Shown piece by piece: positions 9,868 to 22,840 of a stretch of DNA of 41,550 bases; the stretch's first letter is position 1, and each line of letters begins with the position of its first letter. The notes below the pieces were generated by a model. It was not told the DNA's origin and ran no database searches. It saw only the letters and a program-made list of their open reading frames with translations. The position numbers and the translations under genes were made by a program. Source of the stretch: Saccoglossus kowalevskii (lineage: Eukaryota; Hemichordata; Enteropneusta; Harrimaniidae); NCBI RefSeq assembly GCF_000003605.2, contig NW_003107096.1, positions 111,560 to 153,109 on the forward strand. Direction: 5' to 3'.

Positions 9868-10275
9868 CAAGGGCAAGACTAGCAAATAGTCTGAACGGGT
9901 CATATTGGCATACTTACACTTGTTGATCCTCAACTCCAGAATAGTGTGGATTGTAAGTGAATAGCCAATGTACCGATCATAGCTGTTGATGTCTTGCTCC
10001 ATGACTGACTGTTCGTCAGCAGTTCTCTATCATTCAGTTGACACTAGCAATTCTTTGGCTCTGACTATGAATTCCTGTTTGCCTGTAGGAATCATCCATC
10101 TGCCATCGCTCCGGTCATGACAGCTTGTGCTACCTGAAACCTATTTGGATTGTGGCGATGGCTCTTTGAACTTTGTCTTTGTCTCTGTAATCGACTTCTT
10201 CAGAGTAGTCATCATGCAGCTACAGCAAACGAGTTGGCAGTTCACCCTCTATCTCGCATGACTAGCCATGGTCAC
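9868..10275 (-). pseudogene. Decayed protein-coding relic, family unknown
   Basis: This stretch is visibly richer in G+C than its flanks. On the minus strand it gives long protein-like segments broken by stops and frame changes. Near 10270-10145 one frame reads CEIEGELPTRLL, a stop, then LHDDYSEEVDYRDKDKVQRA and on. After a frame change at about 10140 another frame reads RWMIPTGKQEFIVRAKELL, then a TGA TAG pair. The same frame reopens with ADEQSVMEQDINSYDRY and on, closing at about 9868. A donor-like AAGT|GTAAGT lies at 9919/9918. The acidic, helical-looking composition differs from the Ile/Lys/Asn-rich peptides chance frames give here. It may be a retired host gene or a transposon ORF. It ends about 60 bp before the tandem duplication. 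Confidence 0.35.
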
Positions 10276-10331
10276 CAGGAGATGACACGCAAATACATTT
10301 AGACTAGACAAGCAAACAATATTTGTAGAAT

Positions 10332-11982
10332 TGATCAAAAATTTTGAAATCCATATCATGCATCTTTTTCTTATACATTTATAAAAGGTATCCACATTAT
10401 TTTGTTGCCTTTTGCTAACAAATTAGTAAAGTGTTTCATTTATAATGATTAGGCTTCATGCACAAATCTCCAGGTTAATGCAGTTGCTAGTAAAACTATT
10501 AAGCTTTCATTGAAAACTTTAAAAGCTCAGGGAGCAATGATACTGAAATATTTAATGATTCACTGTATTAGAAACGTGGTCCGTGGTACTTCACTGTTAT
10601 CTGCCTGGTCTATTCACCAGTCGGACATTGTCACATACTCGCTGCAAGGAACATGTTTTGGTAAAGTTCGCAAGTTAAGCCAACAACAATATCCGGTCAG
10701 TAGTTGTGTTGCTTTCATAGCTAACCACAATCAGTATATATATATATATATAATCAGTGGATTATTGTCGTTCATCTTACAGTGTATTTGTTTAAGAATG
10801 ATTATGCAGGGTTATTTATACATAACTCATAAGCATGAATAGAAACCAACCATATTCACACTATGGCATATAATAGATAATATTTAGTAGTCATTAAGTA
10901 GCTATTCAAAATAACTAGGCGTATCAAACAAAGCATTTAATAAAATATAGATTATAATCTCAATAAAGCAGAAACCAACGTCCTAATCGTAATGTATGAT
11001 ATTAAGACTTGATTAGTGTAACAGTTCTGTGTTTCAATATCTTGAATTTATTGCAATTTATTCATTTGCTAGAACAATGCTTATTTCCTTGACTCAATAT
11101 TGCAATGCATTAGCTAAATATAATTGTTACACAAAGTTCACACAATGCAATGGATATTGACTAATAACGCTATTACTTCTGGCTGGACAATTTATGAATA
11201 ATTTGTTGAATAAGATACAAATCGGATGGTAAGATTATTTTTTTTCAGATCAAATTACATTGCATCGTGCAATTGTATGTTTCAGAAATAAGATTGTGTT
11301 TTTTTATGAATAATTCTTATAATAGCAGAACATTTTCGATAAAAATGTATTCTGAATACTGCTAAAAGCATTCAATAAGCTGAAAATGAATGTGTGATTG
11401 AACAAGAATATACTATGCAAGCTAGATACTGCAAAAAACATCCCACATATTCAGACTTTTCACCACATGTAAATTTAATCGCTAGAACACAGGCCACTTT
11501 TCCTTACATGATCTTATACCATTCACAACACGTATTTCGAATCAACAACAATTGAATGTAGTTTTGTATACATTGCATATGCTTTGAAATGATTAGGCGC
11601 TTGACTTGGTTAATGAAGGTTCTGCACCAGAAGGCTATGTAAGAAAACACTGTATTTCATCTCACAAGTCTAGTCAGCTGGAAGCGATATGATCAGTTTG
11701 GTATAAGGTTTCAGACTATTTGCCGGATTGAAATAAACACATCCGTTAGTAAAAAGCTCTTGTTTGTTCAATTCAGAAGAGGAATACAAAGCAGTCTCGC
11801 AGGATAAAACACGTGAATATGAATTGAACAAATATCGAATATCCAATTATATCTGAATTCTAGCAGAAAAACTAATTGTTCATTATTATTGAACAGTAAC
11901 GATGCAATGACGTAAAACGAATAATAGAAAAATAGATCAGAAATTCCCTATACCAATAATATTTTTTTCGTTATTTGATGAG
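10332..11982. repeat. Tandem segmental duplication, copy 1 (~1.65 kb)
   Basis: The unit runs from a TGATCAAA at 10332 to the same octamer at 11983. Ordered anchors recur in copy 2: CACAAATCT (10461 and 12122), TATCTGCCTGG (about 10598 and 12246), ATAACGCTATTA (about 11164 and 13431), and the 100-bp block at 11567 and 15139. Divergence over most of the alignment is substantial, with many substitutions and small indels, so the duplication is old. A TA microsatellite (about 10737-10752) is private to this copy. No gene was recognised in the unit; the 110-codon frame at 10510-10842 is not preserved in copy 2. Confidence 0.75.
11567..11666. other. 100-bp block identical to 15139-15238 (copy 1)
   Basis: From TATACATTGCATATGC to TTTCATCTCACA, all 100 bases match the copy-2 block. 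Similarity stays high (roughly 90%) to about 11750, then falls to the background of the duplication. It contains no convincing ORF: the best frame has 13 codons from ATG to TAA (MIRRLTW...). A short hairpin TTCTG-CAC-CAGAA sits near its centre. Confidence 0.7.
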
Positions 11983-13060
11983 TGATCAAAGTATGTATCT
12001 ATATCATGCAATCACACATGTTCCTTTTATACATCGGATATTTATGGCTACAGGGTATCCAAACTTGCTCGTCCTCAGCCATCCAATTAGGAAAGTATTT
12101 CTATCATGATTAGACTACATGCACAAATCTACATGTTAGTGTAGTTTCCAGTTTCAACTATTTAAACTTAAACTTTAAAAGCTTTGAAATGATGCTGAAA
12201 GACTTAACATTTGTATTAGAAATATGGTCAGTGGTCCTTCACTGGTATCTGCCTGGCTTATTCACCAGTTGGCCACTACTTACCCCCCCCCCCCCATCAC
12301 TGCCAAGTAATCGCTGCAAGCAGCATGGTTGGTGAAATTCTCAAGGCAAGCCAACAAAAATATATCTTGGAAGCATTTCTGTTGCCCTTGTAATTTCACC
12401 CCAATCTGTGTTTTTAGTTGATTATTAACATTCCACTTAAAGTAAATTAATTTAACAATGATTATGCAGAGTTATTTAAACGTAACACCTAAGCATAAAT
12501 AGAAATTTACAGTATGACATATAATAGGTAATATTTGGAAATCATTGCCTTAAGAACTATTAAAAAAAAGGCGTTTCAAACAATGTCTCTGTTTTGATAT
12601 CATTTAAAAAATATAACAGATAATCTCAATAAAGCAGAAACCAACTCCCTAATCGTAATATGTGATCAAAAAACTGTATTATTTTAAACAGTTCAGTGTT
12701 ATAATATCTAGAATTTATCATTATTTATTTATCTTGAACTGGATAATTCACATAAACACTTATATGCATATAGATTTGCCTACATTACATTTCAAAATAA
12801 CTTCCCATTATTGAAACCAATTGCCACGCATCAAATATATATATTTCGATTTTGATATATATAGTTTGTATACATATATTGTATATTTGCAAGACAACTG
12901 TGATTTAGGGGAAAAGCTAGTTTAAAAATAGATTTGACAAATGATTTACATTACAAATGCTTAAATACTCAAAAAAGTATAATATATTGATGCTACACAT
13001 GTATTCTATTTTTCAAAACTATGTTTTTTCTTCATTTAATATTGTAATGCACTATCTGAA

Positions 13061-13386
13061 TCCTCGGGCGCGGACATCCGGGCATATTCACCGCCTGGCA
13101 ACCCGCGGCGGTGAAAACAAAGGCCCAAAACTCGCAGAAAACCGTACTTCGGGATGACTGTTGAGACTCCTCTGAACAGTATAACAAGATTAGCCCTACG
13201 TGTGTAACATATATAAATTTGGTTGTTCGGGATTACTTCAAAGTTGAGTTGGTGTTGTTTTCTCGAATTTTCACCGGCTCGACCGGCGTTCCACAGCAGC
13301 GCGCACAGAGCCCATAGAAATGCATGTACAGTGGTGCGCGTCGTAGCAACGTGGAACGCCTTGTGACGTAGCACCGCCCCCGAGGA
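13061..13386. mobile_element. 326-bp non-autonomous TIR element (MITE-like)
   Basis: The left end TCCTCGGGCGCGG and the reverse complement of the right end, TCCTCGGGGGCGG, match at 12 of 13 positions. The interior is far more G+C-rich than its surroundings. Copy 1 of the duplication preserves the empty site: GCATTAGCTAAATATAATTG corresponds to the flanks GCACTATCTGAA and TACAATTG, so both boundaries are known closely. No clear target-site duplication was seen beyond one or two bases, so the superfamily is not assigned. It has no transposase frame; the ORFs crossing it extend into the flanks and are chance. Confidence 0.65.
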
Positions 13387-13752
13387 TACAATTGTTGCAC
13401 AAAGTTCCCACAATGCCTGGATATTGGTTAATAACGCTATTATTGCTGACTGGACAAATTATGAATCTGTTGAATAAGACCCATATCGCATGACAAGTTG
13501 TGTATTCTGCAAAATTACATTGCATTTTGCAATTGAATTTTTCAATTTTTTTTTGTGTGCTTTTATGACTAATTCGTATAATAGCAAAACGTTTTAGATA
13601 AAACATTGATATACACAGAATAATAATTATATTTGACATGATTCTCAAACATGCTAAAATCATCAAATTTTGATTGAAGAAATACATAATATGCAATGTA
13701 GATGCTGCGAATACTTTTTTTATTCAAACATTTTATTACATTTATATTTAAT

Positions 13753-15043
13753 AATAATAATATTAATAATAATAATAATAAACTTTATTTAAGAAAGATA
13801 AAGCACATGTTACGCCATAGGCTTATCGCACACATGGTCCTAAAAAATTAGTACTATATACAGAAATTAGTAATACATTTTTAAATAAAGAAGTACAGAA
13901 ATATAACATAACTCAATTTTTGACATGAACCATTTAATATAGGTACTTTTAAAAACTCCAATTGAGTCGCTATCACGAATTGATAGAGGTATTTTATTCC
14001 AAAATTCAGCAGCCAAGAATTTGGAAGCTATCTGAATATACTTTAATAATTTTACCAGGAGCCAAGTATAACTTGGAACTGTCTGAATTTCTGGTAGTCC
14101 TAGTGCTGAATTCTCTGACCAATTTAAACATTTGTCTCATATAAGTTGGAGCAAGATTATTTAATAGTTTATAGACCATAATAGAACGCCGGTAATCAAC
14201 CCTATCCATCACAGTCATCCATCTAAATTTCTGAAATTATAAACAGCGATGGGCCTAGTATTGATCCTTGTGGCACACCCGTGGTGAAGGAAGAGACTCA
14301 GATTTAAATTTAAATTTAACATATTGTGACATGTCCGTTAAATAGGATTTGAACCACTGTAGTGATTGGTCACTTAATCTATACAAAGATAATCTGTGTA
14401 ATAAAAGATCATGATTGATCATGTCAAAGGTCTTGCATAAGTCAAGAAGGAGCAATCCTGCCAGGTCACCCTTGTCCATATTGGTAGCCCATTTGGATGC
14501 CATCTTAGCAAGGACGGTCACACATGAGCGAAACTTCCTGAAACCTGATTGAGCCAAATGTAACAGGTTATAGTTAGTTAAGAAATTATACAATTGGTTG
14601 TGTACATGTTACTCCAGTATTTTAGAATGTTCACATAAAATGCTGATAGGTCTGTAATTAGACTTTACATTACAGGGGCCACTCTTGAAAATAGGGCTGA
14701 TTCTACCCTTTTCCATTGGTTTGGAAATCCTTTAGTAGTAATACTTAGATTGATACACCATCAGCAATTGAGGGTGCAGCAATCCTGAGTATCTAGGAAG
14801 ACAAACCATCTGGTCCTATAGATTTTCCAGGATCTAAGTCATGTAAAGCGTTCAGAAAAATTCTTGTGTGATTTGGGGAATGGTAAAAGTATCAGAATTG
14901 AGAACTTCAGATGTAACAAAATTTGTCAACTTTTCGAAATCAAGTTGAGATGGGTTGACTTCCGTGAGATATTCAGATATATTGCTAATGTAATTGTTGA
15001 AACACATGGCAATTTCAAGACTGCCTCCCCATCTTTAAGATTG
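13753..15043 (-). mobile_element. 5'-truncated, internally deleted CR1/L2-like non-LTR retrotransposon
   Basis: Read on the minus strand from 15043, the element starts in the linker before reverse transcriptase. It passes through a diverged ISPIFKSGP, then NYRPISIL, then SGFRKFRSC (14593-14500). RT motif A reads LLLLDLCKTFDMINHD (about 14411-14460), followed by WFKSYLTD. A one-base frame change precedes GVPQGSILGP (about 14240-14280). The catalytic FADD region is absent. The sequence passes almost directly to the C-terminal block (YKLLNNLAPTY, TRTTRN, 14006-14218). The 3' tail is a (TTA/ATT)n run (13753-13790), as in CR1/L2 elements. Target duplications TATTTAAT flank it at 13745-13752 and 15044-15051. 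Stops and shifts make it dead. Confidence 0.85.
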
Positions 15044-15138
15044 TATTTAATCACTGGAGCACATGCCACTTCACCTCACATGTTCTTGTACCATGCATAA
15101 CACGAACATCAAATCAACAACAATTGAAAGTAGTTGTC

Positions 15139-15238
15139 TATACATTGCATATGCTTTGAAATGATTAGGCGCTTGACTTGGTTAATGAAGGTTCTGCACC
15201 AGAAGGCTATGTAAGAAAACACTGTATTTCATCTCACA
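15139..15238. other. 100-bp block identical to 11567-11666 (copy 2)
   Basis: This is the second member of the identical pair. Its left boundary lies 88 bp right of the retrotransposon's target duplication. The sequence between them is homologous to copy 1 but clearly diverged, so the perfect identity is a local property of this block. Confidence 0.7.
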
Positions 15239-15583
15239 CGTCTAGCCAGCTGAAAGGAATATGATCAGTTTAGTATAAGGTTTCAGACTATTTGCCAGGT
15301 TGAAATAAACACACCAGTTTGCGAACAACGCTGTTTATTTTCAATTCAGAAGTGGCATACAAAGCAGTCTTGTAGGAAAAACATGATATGAAATGCACAA
15401 ATATCGAATATCCAATTATATCCGAATTATAGCAGAAAACACTAAATGTCCATCTGTTATGAATTTAATGACGTAAAAAGTGGAGAATAGAGACAGACAG
15501 CTTCCAGAAGTAGATCTGAAATTTCATATAACATAAATAATGTTTTCGTTATTTGATGATTGATCAAAGCATACTATTGCAGA

Positions 15584-15616
15584 GCGCGGGAGATATCAAA
15601 GTGTGTATTTTGGCGC
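15584..15616. promoter_or_regulatory. Two E2F-like sites
   Basis: GCGCGGGA (15584-15591) and TTTGGCGC (15609-15616) lie 17 bp apart, just right of the tandem duplication. TTTGGCGC fits the TTTSSCGC E2F core exactly; the first site is a partial match. No exon could be tied to them. The minus-strand ATGGCGCC overlapping the second site is closed after seven codons. Confidence 0.22.
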
Positions 15617-16056
15617 CATATTTTCACGAGAGATACACTGCACCCTATTGCACACTATGGATCCATTGTATACATGTCAAGGGTGATAAATAGTACGGAT
15701 GTACGGATGTACATGACAGTTGAACTCGTGGTAAATATTCATCAAAGATAACATATTTATTCTTTAATTCTTAACCAAGGGAAAATAACACAATAAAACT
15801 TCTCTGCACAATAAAACAAATTAATTTGAAATAGGGTTGGACGATTCATATAACAGTAGACAACGAATTCATAACTCTAGGTGATGCTTATTGTAACTGA
15901 ATAAGTAAAAAGCCTGTCAACGTAATTCCTGTTGGCATTTCGACATTGCCTACAGTATTTAGTGAAATATCAGCTATTATTATACATCTGTCACCGTAAC
16001 GTCATAAGTTACAGCGTGCCGTAATTTCACAGTATTTTACGGGTATTTTCACCCTA

Positions 16057-16087
16057 CCATATAAGGAAATAGGAATTCCAAATATGG
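16057..16087. promoter_or_regulatory. Paired perfect CArG boxes (SRF-type)
   Basis: CCATATAAGG (16057-16066) and CCAAATATGG (16078-16087) both fit CC(A/T)6GG exactly. They lie 21 bp centre to centre, about two helical turns. On the plus strand a TISU-like AACATGGCTGCC follows at 16121-16132, but its ATG frame stops after six codons and no convincing donor follows. CArG pairs mark SRF targets such as actin, muscle and immediate-early genes. No such gene is visible here, so this is either an upstream element or an enhancer. Confidence 0.5.
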
Positions 16088-16251
16088 AATGATTACGCGC
16101 GTAAGCGTCCTCTAATAATAACATGGCTGCCAATATGGTTTGACCAGACTCTACACAAGAAGTTCGCTGATTCATTTCCAAACATTTTGGATTTCGGCAT
16201 TCCCATGATGTATCCTTGGAAGGAAAAGATAAATACTGATAAGGTTAGTAC

Positions 16252-16361
16252 GAGGATACCTCAAAGTATGCACTCAGGCAGTACGCCATCGCATTGACCC
16301 CCACTGCGCGTCAGTCGATAATTCCTCTGTACTGTCTTTGTGCATACTTTGAGGTATCCTC
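16252..16361. repeat. 110-bp hairpin element with 22-bp perfect terminal inverted repeats
   Basis: The 22 bases at 16252-16273 (GAGGATACCTCAAAGTATGC then AC) are exactly reverse-complemented at 16340-16361. Pairing continues inward with mismatches through CAGTAC, giving arms of about 34 bp around a ~40-bp loop. It resembles a miniature foldback element. The flanks show no certain target duplication. A structured transcript is an alternative. Confidence 0.75.
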
Positions 16362-16751
16362 ATAACGCGTTAATTCATTGACTCTCAATATTCACGTAGA
16401 CGTGGCTCAAATTTACATGTAAATCGACCTCAAAACTTAAAGAACTTGTTCAGGAAAATGAAAGAATATGATTATGTGAAGTCATGAAATTTATTTAATT
16501 TATGGGTGTGTACTTATTAATGTTATTACCACTATACACCACGCTATATTATAATGTACTTCAGATATTAAGGTTTCTTTGGTCATCAATTCCATGCCTA
16601 TCAATCAAATCAATTAACTATTTATTATACCGAAAAATGTACATTTGTAATTTCCAAAACAAAGAATCAAGTAAAATAGGAATCATAAATAGCTGTGAGA
16701 TAATCTAATCAATGCTTCCAGAAATAAATAAATTTCATTAATCTAAATCTG

Positions 16752-21735: not shown

Positions 21736-22773
21736 TCAGGCACTAACCGTCTGTGTTCCAGGAGAGTTTTCCGATACGCGGCCGTCCGTCCGATCGAAAT
21801 CAATTTGGGCACTTTCTCTGTAGCATATGCATACTTTCTTGAATGATTTTCTAAAATTGTCCGATAGAAATGCGTATATAATGGGGTTAACACATGAATT
21901 GATGTAAGAAAGAATATTGCCAATCCAGAGACATATTGTCGTGGTCTCGCTGTAAGGTATTAACTCGAGAGTTAAAAGCACTGACATTATCTGTATCGGC
22001 ATCCACGTTACACAGAAGATAATCACTACAAACACGACCATTTTCGTTACCCTTTTCTTCTGCTTGACACTCTCTTTCGTATGTGAACCCTGGGGCGCTA
22101 CCCCCGTCCACAGGCGTTTCAACATAAAAAAGTAAGTGATGCTTATTATGATAAGAGGCACCAGATACGAGGTGAAGAACAGTTGGAGCCAGAATAGATT
22201 AAATTCGAACGGTGTAAAAGATGCACCACAGTACGTTATAGAACGCCCGTATTCGTCTACGAAGGAGTATGTTTGAAATTTCACAGCGACGGGAGAAAGT
22301 GCTAAGAGAATTACACACCACATAGTGATCACTACGGTAGAAGCATTGCGAACATTGCGGAACTTCATAGACCGTATCGGGTATACCACTGCCAGGTAAC
22401 GATCGAACGACATCATGAGTAAAGTGTAGACGCTAGCGTACATGTTGACGAAAAGCAGATAGTTGACTATTTTGCATATAAATTGTCGGAATGGCCAACT
22501 GGGACTGGCGTAGCTCACAGCTGTAACCGGCACGCAGATCAATAAAAAGAAAAAGTCTGCAAGACTCAAGTTAAGAATGAATAGGTTTGTGGTGGTTTTC
22601 ATCTTTCTCTCTTTGAGCACTACAATGATGACCAAAGAGTTCCCGACTAATCCCAAAATACACACCAGCCCAAATATAACGGGTATTATGATAACTTCAG
22701 GGCTCACATCTGGTACCGGTAAGTAGACTGTTATATTAGGTGCAGACGTAGTAGAATTCACTGACGATGACAT
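21736..22773 (-). CDS. Allatostatin-A/galanin-type neuropeptide G-protein-coupled receptor
   Basis: This is an intact, intronless coding region of 345 residues for a class A receptor in the plasma membrane. The extracellular N-terminus has sequons at N6 and N13. Seven spans lie at about 27-52, 62-88, 98-131, 143-165, 192-217, 240-267 and 279-301. Hallmarks are N45 (GNS), D73 (SLAD), W93, the C100-C182 disulphide pair, D124-R125-Y126, W152, P206, W257-x-P259, and NPIIY at 296-300. Helix 8 is DNFRKSFKK, with C315/C317 for palmitoylation. The TNLFILNLSLAD, WPFRQFICK, RNAS...SPVA and KKRVTKMV...WMPIQ blocks point to the allatostatin-A/galanin branch; somatostatin/allatostatin-C receptors are more distant. 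The ligand is inferred from family only. I chose M at 22773: it has A at -3, and the longer frame (ATG at 22836) runs through a strong splice acceptor. Confidence 0.95.
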   Translation of the reverse strand: MSSSVNSTTSAPNITVYLPVPDVSPEVIIIPVIFGLVCILGLVGNSLVIIVVLKERKMKTTTNLFILNLSLADFFFLLICVPVTAVSYASPSWPFRQFICKIVNYLLFVNMYASVYTLLMMSFDRYLAVVYPIRSMKFRNVRNASTVVITMWCVILLALSPVAVKFQTYSFVDEYGRSITYCGASFTPFEFNLFWLQLFFTSYLVPLIIISITYFFMLKRLWTGVAPQGSHTKESVKQKKRVTKMVVFVVIIFCVTWMPIQIMSVLLTLELIPYSETTTICLWIGNILSYINSCVNPIIYAFLSDNFRKSFKKVCICYRESAQIDFDRTDGRVSENSPGTQTVSA

Positions 22774-22811
22774 AATTATGAAGTTTAGAAGGCTCAGCTC
22801 CTGTAAATTTA

Positions 22812-22840
22812 CTGAAAAAAAACACACACACAACATAAAT
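22812..22840 (-). other. Strong 3' splice acceptor upstream of the receptor start
   Basis: On the minus strand a (TG)n tract and eight T's lead into CAG, ending at 22812. The exon would begin at 22811, 38 bp before the receptor ATG. This predicts a 5'-UTR intron and rules out the upstream in-frame ATG at 22836, which would sit inside the intron. Confidence 0.6.

Follow-up and report, generated by a model that had tools for sequence, protein, structure and literature searches.

The tandem duplication and its identity island

The stretch of 41,550 nucleotides analysed here (the window) comes from the hemichordate Saccoglossus kowalevskii (assembly GCF_000003605.2, contig NW_003107096.1, here C173, positions 111560-153109) and is free of N. 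It contains a unit of ~1.65 kb that is duplicated as a direct tandem, the second copy carrying insertions, and within this diverged pair lies an island of 100 bp in which the two copies are identical. The duplication was mapped by blastn of the window against itself together with segment alignments. The colinear self-blastn pieces (10421-10621/12085-12269, 10756-11051/12416-12718, 11118-11344/13386-13603, and 11473-11893/15045-15463) and the edges of the insertions bear out the setting given in the initial annotation, that of a diverged tandem duplication with insertions in its second copy. The unit is apparently non-coding. The principal features, in window positions, are the following:

10421..11990 (ends approximate), + strand: copy 1 of the ~1.65-kb tandem unit, from self-blastn, segment alignments, and genome search
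12085..15590 (ends approximate), + strand: copy 2 of the unit, broken by insertions, from the same three sources
11567..11666, + strand: identity island of copy 1, identical to 15139-15238 at 100 of 100 positions
15139..15238, + strand: identity island of copy 2, identical to 11567-11666 at 100 of 100 positions

The ends of the island are exact, with the next base mismatched on both sides, confirming the perfect match that had been noticed at first; the island starts lie 3,572 bp apart in the two copies. The genome was searched as an assembly of 572 Mb in 4,830 contigs, with only the best candidates scored and with simple repeats and very common words skipped. A query of 1.7 kb (10380-12080) returned itself and copy 2, plus three short weak matches, and a 221-bp query around the island matched the two window copies only. 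Membership of a repeat family was considered and set aside, as no third copy of the island or of the unit was found among the candidates scored. Within copy 1, positions 10862-10931 show weak matches (76-80%) to three other contigs and are perhaps a small dispersed repeat.

Identity along the unit

Identity was counted over ungapped columns, and a background was taken from 800 columns in 10416-11058 and 11117-11345, omitting the poorly aligning stretches 11059-11116 and 11346-11474. This background is 82.1% identical (143 mismatches). The left flank of the island (11475-11566) is 80.4% identical (18 mismatches in 92 columns; P 0.67 against background) and the right flank (11667-11751) 85.9% (12 in 85; P 0.45), while the island itself has no mismatch in 100 columns (P 1.7e-8). 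Further to the right, 11894-11990 is 84.3% identical. Three settings of the gap costs gave 79.8-82.6% for the background, 80.4% for the left flank, and 84.7-85.9% for the right flank. The ~85 bp that follow the island had been described as matching at roughly 90%, a figure that did not hold, since the measured values are not significantly above the 82% of the background; one step of 50 columns (11682-11731) reaches 90%. The identity profile is a step and not a gradient, with edges that are abrupt in substitutions. A graded conserved element was entertained when sliding windows that counted gap columns looked hump-like, and was rejected when both flanks proved to be at background in ungapped columns.

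Chance, or a locally low mutation rate, is a very unlikely source of such a run, and nothing was found in its favour. When mismatches were permuted over the whole aligned unit, the longest identical run had a mean of 18.7 and a maximum of 44 (5,000 trials). Permutation within 11475-11860, with the island itself counted in the rate, produced a run of 100 in 0 of 200,000 trials, and permutation within the narrower 11545-11755 in 26 of 200,000. The absence of changes in 100 bp sets a 95% upper bound of 3.0% on the divergence since whatever event made the copies alike, compared with about 18% for the unit; if the island is neutral, that event is therefore young relative to the duplication.

Tests for an RNA, a coding exon, or another function

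The initial annotation had offered a conserved non-coding element or small RNA under strong purifying selection as one cause of the identity. Selection of this kind would hold both copies identical through a cis-regulatory core, a small exon, or a small RNA in which nearly every base mattered, and several observations are consistent with it: there are no changes in the 100 bp of the island against a background rate of 18%, and indels are few between 11475 and 11751. An AATAAA stands at the equivalent place in both copies (11732-11737 and 15304-15309), so that a transcript end is possible there. On the + strand, an open stretch of 31 codons (11597-11689), directly preceded by an AG at 11595-11596, overlaps 70 bases of the island and ends at a stop common to both copies.

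The tests for an RNA or a coding exon lent these no support. No Rfam family reached its gathering score over the whole window, a permissive Rfam search of 10000-16500 gave four sub-threshold matches with none on the island, and no tRNA was found in the window. Folds of the island and of its 221-bp context, on either strand, were no better than those of shuffled sequences (z 0.43, 0.34, -0.52, and 1.06). A small RNA was rejected on both the Rfam and the folding results. In the + frame, three of the four codons that differ before the common stop alter the amino acid, although these are few sites, and a genome search with the + peptide matched the two copies and no third place. The open frame of copy 1 on the minus strand meets a stop in copy 2, and the island peptide of neither strand matches Pfam. 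A coding terminal exon of 31 codons followed by AATAAA was accordingly set aside on the altered codons and the lack of a third genome match, short of a full exclusion. Also seen by eye were a possible cassette exon of small size, from AG...GT within the island, and a 17-codon open reading frame. One exact 24-mer was absent from viral and prokaryote contigs, which say little about conservation in eukaryotes.

Conserved and ultraconserved non-coding elements show very high identity without an evident open reading frame, and are defined by conservation between species. The island resembles them in the first two respects, but its identity is between copies within one genome, and neither its abrupt edges nor the absence of an RNA signal speaks for such an assignment. 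With the flanks dropping to background substitutions at once, we regard purifying selection as rather unlikely. The more specific proposal of a lineage-specific functional element kept by selection, for example an enhancer core or an unannotated last exon that ends after the common AATAAA, is unlikely.

Identity islands elsewhere on the contig

Identical runs were surveyed over 190 kb around the window (56,388 N), with two satellite arrays set apart. Seven runs of at least 60 bp lie outside the satellites, with lengths of 111, 100 (the island in the window), 100, 90, 83, 78, and 63 bp. The 111- and 63-bp runs belong to a tandem pair of 98.5% identity at 167 kb. The remaining four fall in a second tandem cluster, outside the window:

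C173:186406-190700, C173:195000-199300, and C173:204000-215000: tandem copies A, B, and C, respectively, of an apparently coding family, from shared open frames

The second 100-bp run (186478-186577/196851-196950) is between A and B and lies, together with the 83-bp run, in a stretch of 94.6% identity. The 90-bp run (A-B) and the 78-bp run (B-C) lie in apparent exons of the family. Right beside the A-B island of 90 bp lie 96 bp that hold 22 mismatches (77% identity), and inside the island all four informative sites group A with B. In two aligned segments outside it, the B-C grouping is backed by 92 sites, the A-B grouping by 34, and the A-C grouping by 25. Comparison of the B-C with the A-B grouping, 0:4 inside against 92:34 outside, gives a Fisher P of 0.0065, and this discordance, on its 4 sites, reads as a signature of gene conversion between A and B. 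For comparison, the longest runs measure 13-34 bp in 11 pairs with at least 90 columns and 70-87% identity, most of which are dispersed or inverted; these pairs were drawn from the listed pairs exclusive of the satellite and array rows, the 98.5% pair, and both clusters' own rows.

The lengths of these runs also bear on an error of assembly or consensus, in which a read or gap-fill from one copy ended up in the other, duplicating a read-length stretch. A length of 100 bp is common for short reads, two of the seven non-satellite runs, the island among them, are exactly 100 bp long, and the assembly has gaps, with 56,388 N among the 190,000 bases surveyed. However, the window itself is without N, no run of exactly 100 occurs among the 21 satellite pairs whose runs reach 60 bp or more, and the remaining non-satellite runs vary in length (111, 90, 83, 78, and 63 bp). 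Moreover, the second 100-bp run sits in a stretch that is already 94.6% identical. On this balance, such an error appears quite improbable.

Gene conversion as the preferred explanation

It is probable (at about 0.65) that the island was left by a short interlocus gene conversion, recent and non-reciprocal. The tandem duplication of the ~1.65-kb segment is old, its copies have diverged to ~82% identity with many indels, and copy 2 has gained insertions. At a later time, one copy may have suffered a break that was repaired from the other over about 100 bp. The repair event that we infer would have removed all differences within the tract and left the flanks at background. Three features expected of a conversion tract are seen. 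Donor and acceptor are paralogous and close, as direct tandem copies with islands 3,572 bp apart; the identical run is longer than chance allows for the divergence of the pair, as the permutations indicate; and the edges are abrupt, with flanks at background in substitutions, although indels in the flanks are rarer than in the background. Of the two causes offered in the initial annotation, selection or local gene conversion, the second is favoured because identity drops at the island edges, the RNA and coding tests lent no support to a function, and similar islands occur in the other tandem cluster; selection fares less well.

Published tract sizes also count for conversion, since the length of the island fits them. 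In one source, most of the averages cited for conversion tracts are 200-300 bp, with many tracts short, and conversion is recorded at identities of 81-85% (PMC3924818). For the Dlx pair of the annelid Capitella teleta, a tract of 150 bp was called by Geneconv (PMC3199776). Dlxa and Dlxb are like the present case in that paralogues of one animal genome are far more alike than expected over a limited stretch, of 150 bp in Dlx and 100 bp in the island, but they are coding genes discussed as inverted pairs, whereas the unit described here looks non-coding, is a direct repeat, and has no third copy that was found. For the gene-converted GOT1 paralogues of the copepod Tigriopus, the abstract of PMC3728101 states that conversion can slow the divergence of paralogues; those genes, however, are coding and are described as retaining islands of divergence despite conversion, in contrast to an island of identity in diverged copies.

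Several observations weigh against conversion. The flanks are poor in indels, with 1 gap opening in 177 columns compared with about 7.5 predicted from the background (34 per 800), which hints at constraint, and the stretch beyond the right flank (11752-11893) is slightly raised, at 88.9% (P 0.06). On account of these two findings, a share of the probability is kept for constraint. Only two copies of the unit were found, so there is no known third copy with which to polarise the event or in which discordance at the island could be seen. The sample for comparison is a small one, from 250 kb with 87,506 N, the discordance within the A/B/C family rests on 4 sites, and the 90- and 78-bp islands used for comparison fall in apparent exons, in which constraint contributes to identity.

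The island is a real but ordinary feature. If conversion is the cause, the case is routine and its small lesson is one of caution: with identity islands of ~80-100 bp in each of two distinct tandem duplications on one contig, a perfect island between paralogues should not be taken as evidence of constraint without an outgroup. The initial annotation had further supposed that identity tracts at other places in other individuals would speak for recent conversion and against a functional element; the islands in the second cluster resemble such tracts, but within one genome only.

Other features of the window and contig

Two insertions interrupt copy 2:

13060..13387 (approximate), no strand assigned: insertion of ~330 bp with inverted ends, from its arms, its edges, and the lack of a counterpart in copy 1
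13753..15043 (approximate), - strand: retrotransposon fragment of ~1.3 kb, from a reverse-transcriptase match, a TAA array, and its edges

The inverted arms of the ~330-bp insertion (around 13048-13073 and 13374-13399) are 26 nt long and 77% complementary, and part of the insertion matches C173:84367-84608 at 70%; we take it to be similar to a miniature inverted-repeat transposable element. Inside the ~1.3-kb insertion, an RVT_1 match lies at 14258-14608 on the minus strand (E 4.7e-7), with a TAA array (13749-13781) at the 3' side and TATTTAAT at both edges (13745-13752 and 15044-15051). From its tail, the fragment may be of the type without long terminal repeats (non-LTR). Between about 12740 and 13030, copy 2 also has roughly 280 AT-rich bases that do not align to copy 1, either a third insertion in copy 2 or a deletion in copy 1.

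An uninterrupted open reading frame of 366 codons on the minus strand (21736-22836) encodes a rhodopsin-family receptor; by sequence, galanin receptor type 2 and somatostatin receptor type 2 come closest to it among proteins of solved structure. Were selection the true cause of the identity, the island would mark a new functional element at a distance of some 6-10 kb from this galanin-receptor-like gene.

Outside the window, the A/B/C family had no Pfam match and a single PDB match at E 0.57. The name "four-jointed-like", considered for it, found no confirmation in these searches, and the family is left unnamed. The 94.6% stretch shared by A and B (C173:186454-186838 against 196827-197213) flanks the matching exons on one side in one copy and on the other side in the other, so that the order is not colinear; an inserted repeat or faulty scaffolding could account for this. 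Between A and B, C173:190834-192745 is a tandem satellite array whose frames read as repeats such as NLPCSYHQFTM.

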